In this document: one piece after another, positions 32,144 to 41,037 of the stretch
How the letters are laid out: the number at the start of each line of letters is the position of its first letter
Numbering within the stretch: position 1 is the first letter of the stretch
Source: a virus
Virus record (IMG/VR): IMGVR_UViG_3300025000_000091
Location: 1 to 64,000 of that record
Length of the DNA stretch: 64,000 bases
Strand: one strand, 5' to 3'
Translations under genes and position numbers: made by a program
Notes under the pieces: generated by a model
The model's input: only the letters and a program-made list of their open reading frames with translations
What the model was told of the DNA's origin: nothing
The model's database searches: none

Positions 32144-32231
32144 TGGTGCCCCTGAAGAGATTTGAACTCTTATGATTAATACAATCGAAAGATTTTAAGT
32201 CTTTTGTGTCTACCAATTTCACCACAGAGGC
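32144..32231 (-). tRNA. tRNA-Leu (anticodon UAA)
   Basis: An 88-nt class II tRNA with encoded CCA. The acceptor GCCTCTG pairs with CAGGGGC. The D-arm is Leu-type (GTGAAATTGGTAGACAC). The anticodon arm is AAAGA-CTTAAAA-TCTTT with anticodon TAA, then a long variable arm and the T-arm AGAGTTCAAATCTCT. It fills the gap between dnaE and the clamp gene in the same direction, so it must be cut out of the replication transcript. UUA codons are frequent in this AT-rich genome. Confidence 0.93.
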
Positions 32232-32236
32232 AATTT

Positions 32237-33256
32237 TTATTCTCCTATCAAACAAACAACATGTTCAAAATTCTCACCCTGAAATTTCAATGAATTCTTT
32301 CCTACAATACAATGTTGAAGTTTATCTAAAATATCATAAAGGAAAGTTGGGGAAACAATAAATTGAATATCCTCCCCTTTATAGGCACAATTGGCATTTT
32401 CCTCAAACCACCCATAATCCCCTTCACCCTTAAAAATAATTCTCCTGTTTTTTACAGAAACAATCACCTGCTCATCTCTTATTGATTCGGCTTTTGAAAA
32501 TATCCCCGCCCTTTCCAGAATTTCTTTTGTCAAAGAAGGTAATTTCAATTCAATCCCTTCGACATTTAAAAATTCAGAAACATCCGGGAATTCTCCAGCA
32601 TCAGTCCTACAAGAAAATATAAGGCCGTTTCCTGCCCTGAAATGCGCCCATCCTGCCGTTTCGCAAAATTCCGCTATAGGGTAGCGGGTTAGACTTTTAA
32701 CTGCTGTAGCGGGTAAAAGAATCGCTTCCTTGAAGGCTTTCTTACCATCGTTCCCGATATCCACCCGCATAATCCTAAAATCATCAGAAGCAGTCAAATA
32801 TCTGCCGTTGATATAAATATTGGAAAGAACAGGTTTGCTCATATCGTCAGCAGCAAATGGCTGAATCATTTTCAGGGCCGGAAGGAATGTTTCAGGAAGT
32901 TTAACCCAATCCTTTGAATTTCCAAGTTCATCCAGGGGCAATTTGATTTCAGATTCCAGTCTGATCCCGGCTCTGGACCTCCCACATTCCAGGTGAAGCA
33001 TATTTTCAGCTTCATCAACTGAAATTTCAATTTCTTCATCTTTCAGTTTGGAAATCAATTTGTATAATTCATCAGCGCGAACCGCCCCAGCAATATCAAT
33101 ACTGATGGGATATCGGACGGCAATTTGATCATTATAGGTTACAACATGCTTGTTGATAAATGCAAATGAGGTTGCCTGCTCGATCACATCCTTACTTGCC
33201 AGGCCTGGTTTGACTGCTTCGAGAGCTGTTTGCAATTCTTGCTTTTTAATTTTCAT
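32237..33256 (-). CDS. dnaN: DNA polymerase sliding clamp (beta-clamp-like)
   Basis: 339 residues, close to bacterial DnaN (about 366). Three clamp-type domains can be traced; the middle has SKPVLSNIYINGRYLTASDDFRI, the LTASDxxR clamp signature. It tethers the phage DnaE to DNA and is loaded by the product of 27017-27940. Confidence 0.85.
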   Translation of the reverse strand: MKIKKQELQTALEAVKPGLASKDVIEQATSFAFINKHVVTYNDQIAVRYPISIDIAGAVRADELYKLISKLKDEEIEISVDEAENMLHLECGRSRAGIRLESEIKLPLDELGNSKDWVKLPETFLPALKMIQPFAADDMSKPVLSNIYINGRYLTASDDFRIMRVDIGNDGKKAFKEAILLPATAVKSLTRYPIAEFCETAGWAHFRAGNGLIFSCRTDAGEFPDVSEFLNVEGIELKLPSLTKEILERAGIFSKAESIRDEQVIVSVKNRRIIFKGEGDYGWFEENANCAYKGEDIQFIVSPTFLYDILDKLQHCIVGKNSLKFQGENFEHVVCLIGE

Positions 33257-33269
33257 TTATTGGCCTCAT

Positions 33270-33674
33270 TTAACTTTGTTTATATTTTCTACCATTAATA
33301 TTAACTTCATATCCGTTATCTGTTTTTTTAACTTTTATTTCACCACCACCCCATTCTTCGACCTCTTCTGCCCATCCCAATAATTCGTTAATACTATTTT
33401 GAAATTGTAATCTTCTATTGTCTTCAAAATTGCAATCATTAAAAAATCCTTGACTTCTTTTTTTCTTAATTATTTTATCGACATCATTCGAGGTAAGAAA
33501 ATCAATAATTTTATAATTGGCACTAGCTTGTTTAATAATTTTACCAGTTTCTTTATCAATTAAAATTGCATGTTGATTGGATAATTTTCTTGTTATAACA
33601 AAAAGATTGGGATAATTTTCTTTTGTATATTTTCTTAGTTCTACCCCGCGCCAACAATTTTTATCAATAATCAT
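33270..33674 (-). CDS. Hypothetical protein
   Basis: 134 residues. An N-terminal beta-rich part (LFVITRKLSNQHAILIDKETGKII) is followed by helices and a C-terminal hairpin (EIKVKKTDNGYEVNINGRKY). No motif recognised. It lies between the clamp and the GNAT-like gene and starts right at the latter's stop. Confidence 0.5.
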   Translation of the reverse strand: MIIDKNCWRGVELRKYTKENYPNLFVITRKLSNQHAILIDKETGKIIKQASANYKIIDFLTSNDVDKIIKKKRSQGFFNDCNFEDNRRLQFQNSINELLGWAEEVEEWGGGEIKVKKTDNGYEVNINGRKYKQS

Positions 33675-34478
33675 TTATCTTCTCCAAGAATAAATTTTTC
33701 TTACATATAAGGGGTTCATTTTATCTTTATAAAATTTTAACCCTTCATTATCAATTATCCCGCCATCATTTACAATCTTTCCTTTTCCAATTATTTCCTC
33801 ATCAAGATAAAATAAAAGTCTTGAAAATTCATTTAAAAATGGTTGTTTGGGATCAGAAAAATTAAAACGAAAATTAATAAATTGATAATTTTCATCCCAA
33901 ACATTTATCGCAACTAATTCCTCGGGTAGAAGGAAAACCCCCTTTCTGTTTTCCCCTTCAAAACAACATTTCAAAATTGCTTCTTCGTCTTGAATATTAA
34001 TCCTATTTTTATTGAAACTTAACCAATTTATTAAAAGATCAGTTAATAATAGTTCATCATTTTCATTTAAGGGACGGTATATAAATTTATTTTCTCTTGG
34101 CCATTTCCTTGAATTTTTACGAAAGCAAGCCCAACCACCACCAGCCATATTTTGAAATCGAGAAGGATTATAAAAATATTCAAAATCAAGAAATTCTCTT
34201 TTATATCCTTGAATATCTTTTTTATCAAAATCCGACCAAATACGTCTTGGATTATTTGACAAGTCAATTTCAAAAGTATTAATATTTATTGGAGGAAAGA
34301 TTAAAATATCGTCATCATAACATTCAATAATATTATTGTCGATAACAATATCAATATCAAGTAAATCAAGATATTCTTTTGAACACCAAAAATTAGGTGT
34401 TATCTTCCCCATCTCCAGAATTTCCAGAAATGTTTCCGAAGAAACCACTTGTTTTTGGAATTTTCTTTTTGTTTCCAC
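33675..34478 (-). CDS. GNAT-like acyltransferase-fold protein
   Basis: 267 residues from GTG 34478; an ATG at 34412 gives 245 residues and less overlap with the small gene upstream. The C-terminal half (INFRFNFSDPKQPFLNEF...KIVNDGGIIDNEGLKFYKDKMNP) resembles the end of GNAT/DUF2156-type folds, with NDGG and GLKFYK. Related phage proteins accompany nucleic-acid modification genes. It is the last gene of the radical SAM/PLP group. The acyl donor is unknown. Confidence 0.5.
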   Translation of the reverse strand: METKRKFQKQVVSSETFLEILEMGKITPNFWCSKEYLDLLDIDIVIDNNIIECYDDDILIFPPININTFEIDLSNNPRRIWSDFDKKDIQGYKREFLDFEYFYNPSRFQNMAGGGWACFRKNSRKWPRENKFIYRPLNENDELLLTDLLINWLSFNKNRINIQDEEAILKCCFEGENRKGVFLLPEELVAINVWDENYQFINFRFNFSDPKQPFLNEFSRLLFYLDEEIIGKGKIVNDGGIIDNEGLKFYKDKMNPLYVRKIYSWRR

Positions 34479-34566
34479 AATTACTCTTTTTGCCGTCTTT
34501 TTTATTCAAAAGAGTCTGAATCAATTTCTTACTTACTCCGCCTGACTTTCTGCTCTTCCCGCCCAT
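34393..34566 (-). CDS. 57-residue basic Gly/Ser/Lys-rich protein
   Basis: ATG behind a very strong caggaggtag, and stop TAA at 34395-34393. The sequence opens MGGKSRKSGGVSKKLIQTLLNKK and ends GFFGNISGNSGDGEDN. Similar short basic proteins occur in other phages. It overlaps the possible N-terminus of the GNAT-like gene in another frame, which favours the later start for that gene. Confidence 0.55.
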   Translation of the reverse strand: MGGKSRKSGGVSKKLIQTLLNKKDGKKSNCGNKKKIPKTSGFFGNISGNSGDGEDNT

Positions 34567-35314
34567 CTTCTACCTCCTGACTTCTCGTAATGTTTGAAAG
34601 TTCATCGTATCGGCAACAAGAAATAAATCCTGACATATTTACAGTATTGCTCAACCCTTTGATATAAATATAATCAGATTTATCGTCATTGAAAAAATTA
34701 AAATTGACTTGATCTTGAAAAATAAACAAAGAAGTAAAATCATTTGTTCTGATCCCAATAGGACCAAAATCACTTATTTTTTTATCAACATCAATCCCAA
34801 ATCCGCTTGCACTCTTATCCTTTGAAATCTCAATAATGGAACCACTATAAATATCACGCTGAACCATATACAATTTCCCATTTTCTCCACGAAATTCAAT
34901 ATGGCTCAATCCATCTTCCAAAAGGCTCAAAATAGTTTTGGGAATAATCACTTCGTTATCAGCTTCTTCTGTGTCGTATGAAAGATAAAGTTTTTCAATT
35001 TCTTCAGGAGTTGAATCAGGAATCCGGCAACTTTTTTCTCGCAAATACCCGCCTTCTTTAGTAATGAAAACAATATTCCCATCTCTTTCTTCAAATTCCC
35101 TGCTATCATAATCATTTGCCCGGAAGGCAACAGGATGATCAAATGGTGTTTCAAATTTTCTTAAAAAGAATCTCAAAAGAACTGTGGAATCACTGTTAAG
35201 AATATAAATTTTGTTTTTGATTGCATAAATTGAATTACGAAGTTTCCCGGATTGATCCATAGAAACTGCAAGTGAAAATATTTCTTCAACCAATTTTGAA
35301 ATTTTCTTTCCCAT
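34529..35314 (-). CDS. Hypothetical protein, possibly clamp-like
   Basis: 261 residues behind caggagaat. Strand-rich with repeated acidic turns; the end NTVNMSGFISCCRYDEL and the middle PFDHPVAFRANDYDS have some flavour of sliding-clamp-like folds, but I cannot assign it. It lies between the first radical SAM gene and the GNAT-like gene. Confidence 0.45.
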   Translation of the reverse strand: MGKKISKLVEEIFSLAVSMDQSGKLRNSIYAIKNKIYILNSDSTVLLRFFLRKFETPFDHPVAFRANDYDSREFEERDGNIVFITKEGGYLREKSCRIPDSTPEEIEKLYLSYDTEEADNEVIIPKTILSLLEDGLSHIEFRGENGKLYMVQRDIYSGSIIEISKDKSASGFGIDVDKKISDFGPIGIRTNDFTSLFIFQDQVNFNFFNDDKSDYIYIKGLSNTVNMSGFISCCRYDELSNITRSQEVEDGREEQKVRRSK

Positions 35315-35327
35315 TTTATTCTCCTGA

Positions 35328-36728
35328 TTAAATGATAGAATTTAAAATATCAAGTCTAAAGTCACTTTGTTTAACGAATTTCCATATTAATCCGTTTTCA
35401 TCTATTCCAACAGCTTCCATTCCTTTTGCCCAAGAATGACTATAAGCATTATTCCCGTCGCAATTCCAAAGTTGTTTTACATCTGCTTTGATTTTTTCAG
35501 TAAGAAACCCGCCCTTTCCTTCAACAAATTTTTCAAACTCAAACCAATTTACCGGCTTTCCATTTTGTTGTTGAATGTATCTTGAAGCCCAAACTGTACA
35601 CCCATAATTATATCCATCTCCAAACCAATCTTCAACCTCACAACAAACCGTTTGATTATTTTGAGGAGTATTACCCATGTCAAATGTCGAGCAACTAAAT
35701 CCTTGTTTCTGAAAAATATCCATAAAAGAACCAAGCAATAATGATCCTATTGCCTGAGAGTCACAACCAAGAAGAAATAATCTTTCAAAATCATATCCCT
35801 CAGAAACAAAAGCGGATCGAATACCGGGATTATGGGCGGTATAACTATATGTATCAAATGTTATGTTTTTAATCCCAGCATCTTTAAGTTGAGAAATATA
35901 ATCTTCAACATCGTCCTTATTATCATTTACAAACAATAAAAATGGCTCAATTCTTGCAACAACTCTTACTCCAGCATCCACCAATTTTTTCCCGGCTTCT
36001 ATTCTTTTTTTGAATGTCGGGGCACCTGGTTCAAGTTTTTTCAATATTCCTTCATTTGAGGAAATCATTGTAATATGGACGGCAGCCTTCCCTTTGTTAT
36101 CCGCCAATGCCCGCAAATATTCTTCCCTTGCTACAAGATCAGATTTGGTATTAATCATTACAGGATAATCAACATTGGCAAGATATTGAAGCAACTCCAA
36201 ACTTATCCCCTTCTTTCCTTCCGCATAAAGGAAATCTTCAAAACGAATTCCAAACCTTATAGGAATTTCCATTGCGAGGGCTTTTTTAATATCAGAAAGC
36301 TCTTTAGGATTTTGCCCCCTACTCCCCATTAATTTATCAAGTTCTGTTTTATAAAAATCGGGATTACAATGGCGGTATCCCATTGTTTTGGAATTATCAA
36401 AAAAGGCGGTATAAAGGCTGGCCCGGAAAGCATTAGCAAAACAATAAATACATTTGAAGGGACATATAAGTCCGTCCCAAACATCCAAATTCAGCGGCAT
36501 AGGGCAAGCAGCAGCCCTGATAGATATTTCCAGAAAACTGTTTACTGTTTCAGTATTTAACAATCTTTCTTGTTTTACCCATTCCTTATTCTTAATATTG
36601 AATTGATGGTATCCTGTTTTCCTCCCCTTTTCCTTAACAGCATCCACTATATTCTTATCAAGTTTTAATCTTGTTTGACGAGGAATGATTTTGCTAACAA
36701 TTTTTCTCAATTCATAATAATCAATCAT
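35328..36728 (-). CDS. SPL-like radical SAM enzyme 1
   Basis: 466 residues from the ATG behind aggataaaat. CPFKCIYC (Cys 89, 93, 96) binds the 4Fe-4S cluster, and CFANAFRASLYTAFF follows as in spore-photoproduct-lyase-like enzymes. The TIM-barrel core continues with GIRFEDFLYAEGKKG, VMINTKSDLV and VARIEPFLLF. The C-terminal third has several Cys (GCDSQ, TVCCEVEDW, YGCTVW) that may hold a second metal site. Spore photoproduct lyase repairs a thymine dimer; whether this enzyme touches DNA is not known. Confidence 0.8.
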   Translation of the reverse strand: MIDYYELRKIVSKIIPRQTRLKLDKNIVDAVKEKGRKTGYHQFNIKNKEWVKQERLLNTETVNSFLEISIRAAACPMPLNLDVWDGLICPFKCIYCFANAFRASLYTAFFDNSKTMGYRHCNPDFYKTELDKLMGSRGQNPKELSDIKKALAMEIPIRFGIRFEDFLYAEGKKGISLELLQYLANVDYPVMINTKSDLVAREEYLRALADNKGKAAVHITMISSNEGILKKLEPGAPTFKKRIEAGKKLVDAGVRVVARIEPFLLFVNDNKDDVEDYISQLKDAGIKNITFDTYSYTAHNPGIRSAFVSEGYDFERLFLLGCDSQAIGSLLLGSFMDIFQKQGFSCSTFDMGNTPQNNQTVCCEVEDWFGDGYNYGCTVWASRYIQQQNGKPVNWFEFEKFVEGKGGFLTEKIKADVKQLWNCDGNNAYSHSWAKGMEAVGIDENGLIWKFVKQSDFRLDILNSII

Positions 36729-36732
36729 TATT

Positions 36733-37578
36733 TTATCCTTTAAATTCTTTTGGCAAGGCTCCAATATTCCAAAATAATATTGGTTTTTTAAGTTTATTTA
36801 TGTTGTTTAAAAGCCATTCCCACGCTTTCAAATCATACCAAGGATGACAAGGAAACAATTGTTCAATATTACTTCTTTCTGTATATTCCCAGCCTTCATC
36901 AATTAATTCAAAATCCCTTTTAAAAAAACCGTTTTGAGTAAATCCGCCAATATCCTCGATATGATGTATCTTATTTTGAACATTACAGGAACGGGTTATG
37001 ATTCCGTAAATTTTAGCATCATTAAATGCCTTAATGACTCCTGCCCCAATAGTTCCACTTCCTATACACAAAATAATTGTATTAAATTTTATTTTTGAAT
37101 TTGCTCTTGTCCAAATGGCTTCTTCATATGTTGCATCAATTGTTTCAGGAAATTTCAATCCAAGCGGCAATAGGTATGAATTTTTATATTTGTTTTTGAG
37201 TTTCTTTTTTGAAATATACCAATTGACCTTGGCTCTACCGGCCTGAATAGGAATTATTTCTGCTTCAAATTCTCGCCATTGATTTCTATGAAAATCAAGT
37301 AATGGCTGTTTTGTTTTGTATTGAGGATCAAAAATTATACATTTTAAACCGATTTTTTTACAGGCCCAGGCTACTCCCCAGCCAGCCATAGAAATATTCG
37401 TTTCTGTATATCCTATATGGATAAAACCTGCTTGTTTTAATCGGCTTAATACCGGGATTAATCCTCTAATTTTTGAAAAGGTTGGGCCATTATCGGAAAC
37501 AATTTTATCTTCTCTTTTAACATAAACAATATGATTATCAATTTTATATAATTCTATCGGGGTATGATTAAATATCAT
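36733..37578 (-). CDS. PLP-dependent enzyme, fold type II
   Basis: 281 residues from the ATG behind ggggtata. VKREDKIVSDNGPTFSKIRG places the PLP Lys at residue 36, as in threonine synthase, ACC-deaminase and desulfhydrase relatives. GYTETNISMAGWGVAWACKKIGLKCIIF is the substrate-binding segment, and CIGSGTIGAG (171-180) the phosphate loop. Such enzymes act at the beta or gamma carbon of amino acids. It sits between two radical SAM genes with overlapping ends. Substrate unknown. Confidence 0.8.
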   Translation of the reverse strand: MIFNHTPIELYKIDNHIVYVKREDKIVSDNGPTFSKIRGLIPVLSRLKQAGFIHIGYTETNISMAGWGVAWACKKIGLKCIIFDPQYKTKQPLLDFHRNQWREFEAEIIPIQAGRAKVNWYISKKKLKNKYKNSYLLPLGLKFPETIDATYEEAIWTRANSKIKFNTIILCIGSGTIGAGVIKAFNDAKIYGIITRSCNVQNKIHHIEDIGGFTQNGFFKRDFELIDEGWEYTERSNIEQLFPCHPWYDLKAWEWLLNNINKLKKPILFWNIGALPKEFKG

Positions 37579-38623
37579 TATATACCCCGGAATCAAATAA
37601 TGTATAAAATTTTGATGATTTTTCCGAAACTATTTTCTTTCCTTCTTCATAATCTCCAGAGCCATCAAAAGACTGATCAAAAAATTCTTCTTGTTTAACC
37701 CCTTCTTGGATTTTCTTTTTCCAAAAATGAGTATTAAATGTTGTTGGGGTAGGAACATTTATTCCGCAACAAGTATTCGCCTTTTCAATCCATTTAGGCC
37801 CGGTATTAACAAAATCAGGACAACCAAGGATGATATTGTGTTTTTGAGAAATTTCCATTAATTTCCTCAAAATTCTTTTCCATTGTCGATCCTGATTCAT
37901 AAACCATATTTTTTCAATATCTAACCCAATACTATGAAAATTTTTCGCCACATGATCATTAAAATGAAGGTTGTACGTATTGTAACTTTTGATATTATAA
38001 TTTTTTAACAACTTGACGGCATCTTCAAATTCAGATATTTTATGAAAACCAGGAATAAATGGTTCTCCATTTATTCCTCCCGGAATTCCTTGTTTAATCC
38101 ATTTTGATAAATGCTCAAGCCTTTCCAATGGGGAATTTGTTCTTTTCCGCTCCAAAATTTCCCAATCCCTTTCAAGGCCAGGGGAAACAACAGGCATTAT
38201 TGTTATGAGTTTCTTTTGAGCTGCCTTAAAAATTAGGCTTTCGTAATTCAACAAAACATCTGTGTGCATTGTTTGAATTACAAAAGACCAATTATGTTTA
38301 ATCAAAATTTCAAAAATCTTTTTGCTTACTTGTTTTTGAAGTTCAATTTTTTGGAAAGGATCGGTTTTATTACCCCAACGAATTGTTTTTTTATTGGCAA
38401 GGCAATGCGCAATTGGGGATTTAGGATTTTTATTTAATACCCCATTTCTCAATTTAATATCTAATTCTTCTGGGGAGGTTGGGCGAAGGTCTTGCCCCCA
38501 GGTTCTGTTTAATCTGCGCAGATAGCAATGATGACAGTTTGTTAAACAGTTCCAATAACTGTCAAGTGAAAAAGAGAGGGGGCAATATACACTGTCCCCT
38601 CTCACATTTAATCCGTGACCCAT
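37568..38623 (-). CDS. SPL-like radical SAM enzyme 2
   Basis: 351 residues. YWNCLTNCHHCYL (Cys 26, 30, 33) is the CxxxCxxC cluster site, followed by RLNRTWGQDLRP. IRWGNKTDPFQ and VIQTMHTDVLL follow, a pattern shared with SPL-like proteins. It differs clearly from the other SPL-like copy, so the pair is not a recent duplication. A terminator-like hairpin lies inside its first 20 codons. Confidence 0.8.
   Translation of the reverse strand: MGHGLNVRGDSVYCPLSFSLDSYWNCLTNCHHCYLRRLNRTWGQDLRPTSPEELDIKLRNGVLNKNPKSPIAHCLANKKTIRWGNKTDPFQKIELQKQVSKKIFEILIKHNWSFVIQTMHTDVLLNYESLIFKAAQKKLITIMPVVSPGLERDWEILERKRTNSPLERLEHLSKWIKQGIPGGINGEPFIPGFHKISEFEDAVKLLKNYNIKSYNTYNLHFNDHVAKNFHSIGLDIEKIWFMNQDRQWKRILRKLMEISQKHNIILGCPDFVNTGPKWIEKANTCCGINVPTPTTFNTHFWKKKIQEGVKQEEFFDQSFDGSGDYEEGKKIVSEKSSKFYTLFDSGVYNDI
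38569..38603 (-). terminator. Terminator-like hairpin inside the radical SAM 2 gene start
   Basis: On the - strand GAGAGGGG (38603-38596) pairs perfectly with CCCCTCTC (38581-38574) over a 14-nt loop and is followed by TTTTT (38573-38569). It encodes part of the protein start, yet has the form of an intrinsic terminator, so it could attenuate transcription into the radical SAM/PLP group. Confidence 0.55.
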
Positions 38624-39384
38624 TACTCCACAATGGTAACGGTATTGCCTTCGACAGTTACAACGCCGTATGCGGCAAGAACCGCAAGGCCCTGGCTACA
38701 AATCCAGGCAGCTTCTTTTTCATTATCCTTGCCACCCTTCTCGATAAAAAGGCGGTTGGATTCAGAAATAATTTCTGCCTTGGCAGTATTCCCGGCCTTG
38801 ATGGCATCCGCTAAGGACTGCGCCCTGGTATAACGCTTTTCACCTGAAGATTTCTTAGGTGTCTTGGTAGCATTCGCCATTTTTACAGGCCGACCCTCAG
38901 TGGCCAGCTTCTGGAGCTTCTCAACCACATAGTCACGGCATTTCTTCAAGTCCTTCAGGAAGGGCGGGGCAATCCGAACACCCATTTCCTTGGCAATAGC
39001 CTGAAGTTCGGCAACTTTCTTGGCAACCTTGGCAGATTTTACAGCAGCAGTGGTATCAATCTTTTCGGTCTCAACCGGCTCGCCCTGTTCTCGCTCTTCG
39101 GCATCAGTCATTCCGGTTTCTTCGTTACCCTCTTCGCCGCCTGCCGTACCACCCATTGATTCCGGCAAGTCAGCACCAATAGTCTTTAGGGTCGCAAGCG
39201 TTTCCTCGGACATCTCATCATCATCGGCCAGCAGGGTGCTGGCTTCCCGGATTTTCTGATCAAGCACCTTGGCATTTGCCTTGATATCAATGCGCTGCTT
39301 GTCATCTTCCTCAAACAGCACATCATTAAGCTCCTTGGCTGCCTTGACCAATTCACCCCTCGTTACCGTTTCCTTCTCACTCAT
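38623..39384 (-). CDS. Conserved phage early protein, acidic with C-terminal domain
   Basis: 253 residues from the ATG behind ggaggaaacc. The N-terminus TRGELVKAAKELNDVL is common to phage proteins encoded near replication genes. A long acidic linker follows, then a basic middle (KKVAELQAIAKEMGVRI) and a C-terminal helical domain ending YGVVTVEGNTVTI, perhaps a winged helix. GC content is higher than in its neighbours. Role unknown; DNA binding is possible. Confidence 0.55.
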   Translation of the reverse strand: MSEKETVTRGELVKAAKELNDVLFEEDDKQRIDIKANAKVLDQKIREASTLLADDDEMSEETLATLKTIGADLPESMGGTAGGEEGNEETGMTDAEEREQGEPVETEKIDTTAAVKSAKVAKKVAELQAIAKEMGVRIAPPFLKDLKKCRDYVVEKLQKLATEGRPVKMANATKTPKKSSGEKRYTRAQSLADAIKAGNTAKAEIISESNRLFIEKGGKDNEKEAAWICSQGLAVLAAYGVVTVEGNTVTIVE

Positions 39385-39392
39385 GGTTTCCT

Positions 39393-39490
39393 CCAAAATA
39401 TTTTGGTTTAAATATTGTCTGCATCTTGCCGACAACCTATTGTCACTATTATTATACTGAAAAATATAAAAAAACTACCAAAATATTTTG
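39393..39490 (-). repeat. Two copies of an AT palindrome in a promoter region
   Basis: CCAAAATATTTTGG, a perfect 14-bp palindrome, lies at 39393-39406 next to the Shine-Dalgarno of the downstream gene. A 13-base copy lies at 39478-39490 upstream of the TATAAT at 39456-39451. The pair brackets the putative promoter, the layout of an operator. Confidence 0.6.
39451..39473 (-). promoter_or_regulatory. Promoter-like AGTATAATA element
   Basis: TATAAT at 39456-39451 on the - strand in the context CAGTATAATA, with a T-run 11 nt upstream, in the 123-bp gap between the helicase gene and the acidic protein gene. Flanked by the palindrome pair. Confidence 0.55.
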
Positions 39491-39507: not shown

Positions 39508-41037
39508 TTAATAACTCCCCAAAAATGCCCGGCCAATCTCCAATCTCTGAAGGACTGTAACATATTTTTTACCCCGTTTCCCGGACCTCACCATCAACTG
39601 ATTTATCCTAAATAACCCCAGCTCTGCTTCATCGTCAGTCTGATTCAAACCAAAAAAGGCTGTTGCATGTGAATATTTCCGTTTATCTTCCGAATAGTTA
39701 TCTAGTGAAATCCATTCTTTCCCAAGAGCTTTCCCATCTGCCTGGGTAACAGCGGCAATGAATGCATTCCGCCGATGGGCCATAGCCCTTAATTTTTTCC
39801 ATTTAGAATTTTCCCCATGCCGGAAATCCTTACGTTGATCATCCTTTTCTGTAGCCATAATATCGGGATAATCAACCAAAATTACATCGACTTCAAATCC
39901 TTCCTGTTTCCATTCATCTAATTTATTATCAATCATCCTGGTGGTTAATGTATCCGCCGGATATTCAGCAAATCTCCATTTTCCACCCCTGAATGTTTTT
40001 ACAAATTTACGTTCAATTTCATATCCTTCTTTCCAAGTCAATGGTTCACATTTTTCCTTTATTCTAAACCAGGGGGCACCAATATATTCATGGGTGCCAG
40101 CACATTTGGCACATGGTATATGATCTGAATAGGTTTTAAATGCCGGTAAATAATTCTTGGCTAATCCCTCAAGTTTAAATGGCTTCTTTTCCTCGATAAA
40201 TGGGCTGTTTCCAGGAGCAGATTGGCATTCTCCTGTTTGATTTTTCCAGCAATCAGCAACAGGTATTAATAATTCTTTACAAAATTCAACTTCATTGCTT
40301 CTCCTTGCCAGATGGATATATTTTCTTAATTCCATTTCTTCCCGGTTCATATCCCCAGCAGCGAAAAAGGCAACATTCCTCCCATTTTTCATGGCTTGAA
40401 AGGCAATGTCCATCAAGATCCAGGTTTTGCCAACTTTCTCTTGCCCAAGAAATCCAACAAAGCCACCTTTTACAAAATGCCTATTCAATAAATTTCCTAA
40501 TTTCCCAGGATATTCAATTATTGATTCGGAAACTTCCTCGAATATTTTTCTTGTTCGATCAATATTATCGGCAAAGAAATCGGGATCGGATTTTTCTTCC
40601 TTTTCAAAAGGGGAATATTTTTCAATTATTGATTTTGCTTGTGATAAATCACCTTGCTCTGCAAGCTGCTTGATTTCATCAGCAAGTTTTATTACCTTTT
40701 GTTCATCAAAATAATTTATTGTTTCATCAATTAATGCAGAAAAGGAATATTCATTGGTTTCATATTCCCCCGAAAGGCTGGTTAAAATATCGTCAATATC
40801 TTCAATTTGTTCTTGGGTAAGGATATTTCGTCTTTTATATGATCCAAAAATTAATTCAATATCTCTTTGTGGTGATTTATTATGAGTATTGAAATGACGA
40901 ATACACCATGAAGCAATGGTATTTGCCGCTTGGGATTGAAAATATTGATCTTGAAATTTTTCAGAAATAAATCTTAGAAATTCATCATTGGTAATCAGGC
41001 CAATAATGATTCTTCTTTCGATAAATTGCTCAGACAT
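39508..41037 (-). CDS. Replicative helicase, DnaB-like with Cys-rich insert
   Basis: 509 residues. The N-terminal helical domain (to about 110) is DnaB-like. The RecA-type motor has a divergent Walker A GQEKVGKT (198-205) and Walker B VILVDYPD. Between them lies an insert of about 130 residues with Cys 263, 271, 309 and 312 that probably binds zinc. It unwinds DNA ahead of the phage polymerase. Its loader is encoded nearby at 42048. Confidence 0.8.
   Translation of the reverse strand: MSEQFIERRIIIGLITNDEFLRFISEKFQDQYFQSQAANTIASWCIRHFNTHNKSPQRDIELIFGSYKRRNILTQEQIEDIDDILTSLSGEYETNEYSFSALIDETINYFDEQKVIKLADEIKQLAEQGDLSQAKSIIEKYSPFEKEEKSDPDFFADNIDRTRKIFEEVSESIIEYPGKLGNLLNRHFVKGGFVGFLGQEKVGKTWILMDIAFQAMKNGRNVAFFAAGDMNREEMELRKYIHLARRSNEVEFCKELLIPVADCWKNQTGECQSAPGNSPFIEEKKPFKLEGLAKNYLPAFKTYSDHIPCAKCAGTHEYIGAPWFRIKEKCEPLTWKEGYEIERKFVKTFRGGKWRFAEYPADTLTTRMIDNKLDEWKQEGFEVDVILVDYPDIMATEKDDQRKDFRHGENSKWKKLRAMAHRRNAFIAAVTQADGKALGKEWISLDNYSEDKRKYSHATAFFGLNQTDDEAELGLFRINQLMVRSGKRGKKYVTVLQRLEIGRAFLGSY

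Follow-up and report, generated by a model that had tools for sequence, protein, structure and literature searches.

What does a run of radical S-adenosylmethionine (SAM) and pyridoxal 5'-phosphate (PLP) enzymes do inside the replication operon of a phage? The question arises in IMG/VR record IMGVR_UViG_3300025000_000091, a linear phage record of 66,583 bp, positions 1 to 64,000 of which form the window, the whole stretch of 64,000 nucleotides analysed here. Between a helicase gene and a beta-clamp gene, the order is U270, a first radical SAM enzyme (rSAM1), a PLP enzyme, a second radical SAM enzyme (rSAM2), U261, b57, a GNAT-like protein and U134. A first-pass annotation of the letters had described six of these genes, from rSAM1 to the GNAT-like gene, as a cassette recalling thymidine hypermodification in phages such as M6, and all six open reading frames (ORFs) are present on the minus strand within 33675-38623. 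The cassette is real and conserved, a phage gene system apparently not described before; a literature search found no account of it, though one may exist. We consider it fairly probable that it hypermodifies DNA bases by way of a new installation backbone, and we infer both the location of its product on DNA and the base and chemistry involved.

Scans of IMG/VR returned 15 loci with the PLP query and 63 with the rSAM2 query, and removal of near-copies left 53 non-redundant loci, one of which ends before rSAM2. The cassette is far beyond chance: its gene order repeats in dozens of divergent viral contigs. Among loci reaching the helicase, 39/44 carry rSAM1 and 5/44 a divergent variant, rSAM1v (together 44/44). 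U261 and the GNAT-like gene occur in 44/44 loci that extend to the clamp, and b57 lies between them in 45/45, a count made up of 36 found by a strict motif and 9 by inspecting ORFs. The replication-operon position holds throughout the relatives. Many of the cassette-bearing records are fragments; several span 59-172 kb. Scans seeded with the GNAT, U261 or rSAM1 proteins retrieve the same cassette, except for contig-edge fragments and one locus, L173 (4647-7780), where a family GNAT stands without rSAM1, rSAM2 or U261 beside a glycosyltransferase that by eye resembles the TET-associated type. The core thus defined consists of both rSAMs, U261, b57 and the GNAT-like protein. The PLP gene, a member of the cassette as first described, is not part of this core, being present in 21/44 loci.

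The two radical SAM enzymes, rSAM1 (37568-38623, minus strand, 351 aa) and rSAM2 (35328-36764, minus strand, 478 aa, probable start 36728), had been called SPL-like (spore photoproduct lyase-like) and said to flank the PLP enzyme. The radical SAM part of this stands, as both proteins contain CX3CX2C and match radical SAM families, while a full-length match to the SPL family failed. rSAM2 matches Pfam Radical_SAM at 2.7e-7 and SPL only partially (2.7e-4, 20.4 bits vs a cut-off of 27). rSAM1 has no SPL match; it scores only 0.013 against Radical_SAM but 2e-12 against the PA0069 family of radical SAM enzymes. The SPL-like signature is what would speak for DNA repair, such as photoproduct reversal, accompanied by unrelated genes. 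However, the SPL match of rSAM2 is partial and under the cut-off, and two divergent rSAM paralogues invariably occur together with a transferase-fold and a PCNA-fold protein, PLP being optional; we regard repair as very improbable.

A tblastn search of phage records with rSAM1 and rSAM2 gave no clear relative, and a sequence search for solved-structure relatives of either found none. In profile-profile comparison, rSAM1, rSAM2, rSAM1v and gp53 of Pseudomonas phage M6 form one superfamily (hhalign probability 99, vs 2-29 for an unrelated rSAM used as control). They fall in separate clades of a tree, and a C-terminal CC pair conserved in rSAM1 and rSAM2 is absent from gp53. That rSAM2 might be the gp53 orthologue, given its equal length and the same gene order, was rejected by the tree. 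Some loci vary this theme. In L005, L066 and L069 (also L008, L065, L067 and L070) rSAM2 is split or enlarged, and three of these have an ORF inserted inside it, with NUMOD3/DUF559 in the one tested (L066); the insertions suggest homing elements or inteins. A third member of the cassette rSAM family (504-520 aa) lies downstream of GNAT in L040 (11754-13268) and L063 (12175-13737). The third radical SAM gene in the replication module of the present phage (27949-28809) is unrelated to rSAM1, rSAM2 or gp53.

The PLP enzyme (36733-37596, minus strand, probable start 37578) gives the link to M6. It is of fold-type II, with a Pfam PALP match of 6.5e-11, and its lysine and phosphate loop are intact, as had been claimed: K41 and SGT..AG are invariant in 13 homologues including M6 gp52. 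Invariant residues common to it and gp52 comprise the Schiff-base lysine, the SGT..AG loop, a stretch FPC.(Y)YD.KAW and the end FWN[IV]G, and the identity to gp52 reaches 37.5% over 96% of the length. A search of phage records with the PLP protein matched only 65 records, mostly M6/YuA-like Pseudomonas phages. The M6 operon runs gp51 (Pfam ADDT, amino acid:DNA transferase), gp52 (PLP), gp53 (radical SAM), gp54 (HMUDK), gp55 (HMUDK_hel, the helical partner), gp56 (Nmad5) and gp58 (a thymidylate synthase (TS) homologue). Lee et al. in 2021 are said to have assigned gp53 as an isomerase converting N-glycinyl- to C-glycinyl-thymidine and gp52 as a decarboxylase giving aminoethyl-deoxyuridine (aminoethyl-dU). 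M6 DNA contains 5-(2-aminoethyl)-deoxyuridine (PMC6449724), and SN1, a relative of M6, has the same cassette as M6 (PMC9476957). Direct comparison of the cassette proteins with M6 gp51, gp54, gp55, gp56 and gp58 gave nothing beyond the PLP/gp52 pair. U261 or GNAT as a disguised ADDT or kinase was ruled out by this sequence comparison, and the predicted folds agree.

Could the cassette be classical thymidine hypermodification in disguise? Here 5-hydroxymethyl-deoxyuridine (5-hmdU) would come from an unrecognised or missing enzyme, encoded by the host or in a stretch missing from the contig, unrecognised proteins would phosphorylate and aminate it, and the cassette would carry out only later steps. 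The contig is linear and perhaps incomplete, the PLP, flavin lyase and methyltransferase-like (Mtase-like) families are common to classical operons, and in one relative, L012, a TS-like gene lies directly downstream of the clamp. Searches for the installing enzymes argue against it; M6 was the positive control in those for TS, ADDT and the two HMUDK families. No TS homologue or dUMP hydroxymethylase (PF00303) was found in the whole 66.6-kb record, although the record's completeness is uncertain, and among the cassette-bearing records searched, just 2 have TS. The 5-hmdU DNA kinase (PF18748 / PF18723; M6 matches both) was found neither in this record nor in the cassette records searched, and the same is true of ADDT (PF18724; M6 2e-48). 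Tet_JBP, which matched only two classical-type records, is absent from the cassette records tested, and Tet/JBP was thus dropped as a hydroxymethyl source. Classical hypermodification in disguise is therefore unlikely. The first-pass annotation had already noted that no TS homologue or hmdU kinase is visible, an absence that holds over the whole record, and the check it proposed, for a dUMP hydroxymethylase-like gene in the rest of the genome, returned none. Its M6-type lead survives in the PLP enzyme, homologous to gp52, and in other common tailoring families; its caveat about the installing enzymes also stands.

Two observations touch these enzymes. In G024, the record of L059, a TS match at 36236-36559 is broken by stop codons and is a probable pseudogene or frameshift. 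In L110 (5048-6244) and L112 (181-1365) a Tet/JBP-type dioxygenase lies beside kinase-like, PLP and gp53 genes, with an ADDT match in L110; there it apparently replaces the thymidylate synthase route to 5-hmdU.

What, then, ties the core to DNA? The main argument comes from the tailoring genes, whose slot is mostly between the two rSAMs. Over 44 loci, the slot holds PLP in 21, a 235-aa Mtase-like protein in 15, an aldo/keto reductase in 10, a flavin DAO-type enzyme in 2 and DUF362 in 5. DUF362 occurs only alongside rSAM1v, and rSAM1 is alone in six loci. The slot flavin enzyme matches solved phage flavin-dependent lyases (8z2o and 8z79, ~1e-31) and PaMx11 gp47, itself located in a classical operon, and the Mtase-like family is also found in three M6-type loci. 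Three tailoring families are thus common to both backbones, since the PLP, flavin lyase and Mtase-like families are found in each. A PLP-profile scan gave 51 loci, and those new in that scan (L090-L125) were used for a tally of backbones: no locus combines the rSAM1/rSAM2/U261/GNAT core with M6-type genes, in which gp53 is mostly accompanied by ADDT, HMUDK or TS, and all but two have one or the other. L097 (2512-5427) and L098 (1614-5860) have neither backbone, with a gp52-type PLP and two DNA methyltransferase-like genes in the helicase-clamp slot; lacking rSAM or ADDT, they possibly represent another way to make the PLP substrate on DNA. In L109 and L117, gp53 is accompanied by a further rSAM-family member; the one from L109 groups in the tree with the third rSAMs of L040 and L063, and that of L117 was not placed in the tree.

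In a tree of the PLP enzymes, 28 cassette PLPs and the two from L097 and L098 make up one group, and five cassette PLPs nest among the classical ones; the strongly supported branches require at least three backbone changes. Judged from these sequences, the PLP enzyme has been swapped between backbones, and its substrate is most likely identical, or nearly so, in the two. It is chiefly because of this swapping that we think DNA is the target of the core and a base carrying an amino acid its product.

The GNAT-like protein (33675-34478, minus strand, 267 aa) had been taken as acetyltransferase-like, which the structural comparison does not bear out. Its AlphaFold2 (AF2) model has a predicted local distance difference test (pLDDT) score of 95, and the best Foldseek matches in the PDB are 2hqy (DUF2156-type), L-PGS, MprF, A-PGS, Sbb17 and FemX, with named-enzyme matches down to E 2e-9 that rank before acyl-CoA enzymes. 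Pfam LPG_synthase_C is matched by 20/44 members of the family, the window protein itself giving no match. A CoA-loop-like motif is absent in 41/44 sequences, which bears on the donor only indirectly. The model thus predicts an aminoacyl-tRNA-dependent transferase-type tandem GNAT fold (LPG_synthase_C type). Phage tRNAs beside the cassette were considered as the source of the donor, an idea that found no support, as tRNAs lie near only few loci. In the present phage a tRNA-Leu (TAA; 32144-32231) immediately adjoins the clamp gene on one side and a PolIII-alpha-like gene on the other, and L050 has a tRNA-Gly at the equivalent place.

A tRNA near the cassette also brings up modification of tRNA, rRNA or protein that aids phage translation or counters host defence. 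MnmC and MnmEG carry out tRNA wobble uridine modification, which the Mtase-like, flavin and glycine chemistry resembles. Yet very few relatives have tRNAs close to the cassette, those PLP and flavin homologues whose role is known or assigned act on DNA, and the cassette sits in the replication module, so that such a role appears quite improbable.

U261 (34529-35314, minus strand), left unassigned by the first reading, can now be given a predicted fold. For an AF2 model with a pLDDT of 88, the top Foldseek matches in the PDB are all PCNA-type clamps (best E 1e-9), with a two-domain fold and a TM-score of about 0.54, and a viral structure library agrees. The four helices that would line DNA have a mean net charge of -0.1 to -1.1 over 44 sequences. 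Because these helices are neutral to acidic, the modelled protein may serve as a platform and not encircle DNA. Its neighbour b57 (34393-34566, minus strand) is a small basic protein of charge +9 and, as had been supposed of this 57-residue ORF, a real one: the N-terminus MGGKSRKxGxVSKxLI is kept in 45/45 relatives at the equivalent position, followed by a variable tail that often ends in LF/FF. Such tails, noticed post hoc, are found in 50% of b57 and 43% of Mtase-like sequences vs 7%, an enrichment that in sequence terms hints at clamp binding.

The invariant N-terminus and variable tail of b57, near two rSAMs and an MprF/FemX-fold ligase, are also what one might expect of a peptide or small-molecule pathway, in which b57 would be a scaffold, or a precursor like those of ribosomally synthesised and post-translationally modified peptides, and the rSAMs, PLP enzyme and aminoacyl-tRNA-dependent ligase would modify it. 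The tailoring enzymes are, however, common to known DNA-modification operons, the cassette sits inside the replication operon, its PCNA-fold partner is invariant, and neither a transporter nor a protease was seen among the genes recurring in the slot. We judge this pathway distinctly unlikely.

How might the cassette modify DNA, as we favour? U261/b57 and the replisome would hold both rSAMs near newly made DNA. The rSAMs would give a base an alpha-amino-acid side chain without passing through phosphorylated 5-hydroxymethyl-dU, and together they could form the C-C bond directly. The base would most likely be thymine, modified at its methyl; thymine is the probable target because the PLP and flavin enzymes derive from thymidine pathways. 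The PLP enzyme would then decarboxylate this chain and leave a primary amine, the step reportedly taken by gp52 in M6 (5-(2-aminoethyl)-dU). Aminoacyl-tRNA would serve the MprF/FemX-fold protein as donor of an aminoacyl group, with that amine or another base nucleophile as the probable acceptor. The modified product would shield phage DNA from host nucleases. In its most specific form, the proposal is that an amino-acid-derived side chain is set directly on a canonical base by the rSAM pair and an aminoacyl-tRNA-dependent transferase, organised at the replication fork by the PCNA-fold protein and the small basic adaptor, with no 5-hydroxymethyl intermediate; this version we offer tentatively, as a possibility.

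Modification of DNA is also favoured by what else the slot and the family are found with: DNA methyltransferases with PLP in L097 and L098, and the TET-associated-type glycosyltransferase with GNAT in L173. Several points weigh on the other side. The cassette is known from sequences alone, without a cultured relative, and the contig may be incomplete. Neither rSAM1 nor rSAM2 is orthologous to gp53, given their separate clades, the inner face of U261 is not basic, as it would be in a clamp that encircles DNA, and an MprF-like fold, itself modelled, is no proof of aminoacyl-tRNA use. If the amino acid were acyl-linked by its carboxylate, moreover, this would not fit a PLP decarboxylase acting later, so the order of steps proposed here is provisional.

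The surroundings are those of a phage genome. Tail genes (tape measure, fibre) lie at the left end of the record and head genes at 52-57 kb, with the minus-strand replication module in between. This module includes the DnaB-like helicase (39508-41037) and a beta-clamp (32237-33256) separate from U261. Next to the helicase, U270 (38623-39435, minus strand) is a charged protein whose position before rSAM1 is weakly conserved in many relatives. The accessory gene U134 (33270-33674, minus strand) stands at the other end; a minority of relatives have its homologue inside the cassette, either following GNAT or separating PLP from rSAM2. The cassette genes had been described as all overlapping, which is partly right: a 13-nt gap separates rSAM2 from U261, and comparison with homologues suggests internal ATG starts for PLP (37578) and rSAM2 (36728), which would turn the PLP/rSAM2 overlap into a short gap. 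Between the head genes, at 57465-64345, lies a host-like metabolic block with a zinc alcohol dehydrogenase, a split transketolase and a short-chain dehydrogenase, to which inspection by eye adds a methyltransferase-like protein; a sulfotransferase-like gene comes after it. A near-DNA search of a phage collection with the window gave no match, nor did PADLOC, and a GTDB scan returned only three small fragments of metagenome-assembled genomes, with no usable host link.

If the favoured explanation is true, a widespread cassette keeps the finishing enzymes of a known chemistry and swaps out the whole installing machinery. It would bring new radical chemistry on DNA, possibly with tRNA-dependent aminoacylation of DNA, and a new means for phages to hide DNA from bacterial defences. 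A pool of modified phages would also have escaped any search that relies on genes for TS, kinase or transferase.

How does this compare with what has been described? The phage hypermodification routes known to us all begin from a hydroxymethyl or carboxymethyl handle, and we know of no earlier case of tRNA-dependent aminoacylation of DNA bases. Among the closest systems is the M6/YuA operon, which likewise has a gp52-homologous PLP enzyme adjoining an SPL-like radical SAM in a replication-gene neighbourhood, and the Mtase-like tailoring family is found in relatives of both. In contrast to that operon, the cassette has no ADDT, HMUDK or TS homologue, its rSAMs are not gp53 orthologues, and it adds the PCNA-fold U261, b57 and the MprF/FemX-fold transferase. 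With the PaMx11 operon (gp47; the 8z2o/8z79 family) the likeness is a homologous flavin enzyme in the slot of two non-redundant cassette relatives, but the flavin lyase is absent from this phage and the installing enzymes differ. The CmoX/CmoY system for 5-carboxymethylcytosine-glycine, a C5-methyltransferase homologue with an ATP-dependent amide ligase, also puts an amino acid on a phage DNA base independently of 5-hmdU, although its described core has no rSAM, PLP or MprF-fold enzyme (PMC12783734). Compared with PCNA-type clamps, U261 shows the predicted two-domain fold, but at a TM-score of ~0.5 and with DNA-lining helices that are net negative, in a phage that has its own beta-clamp. The GNAT-like protein shares its predicted fold with MprF, L-PGS, FemX and Sbb17; unlike these, it is a soluble protein of ~267 aa encoded in a phage replication operon.

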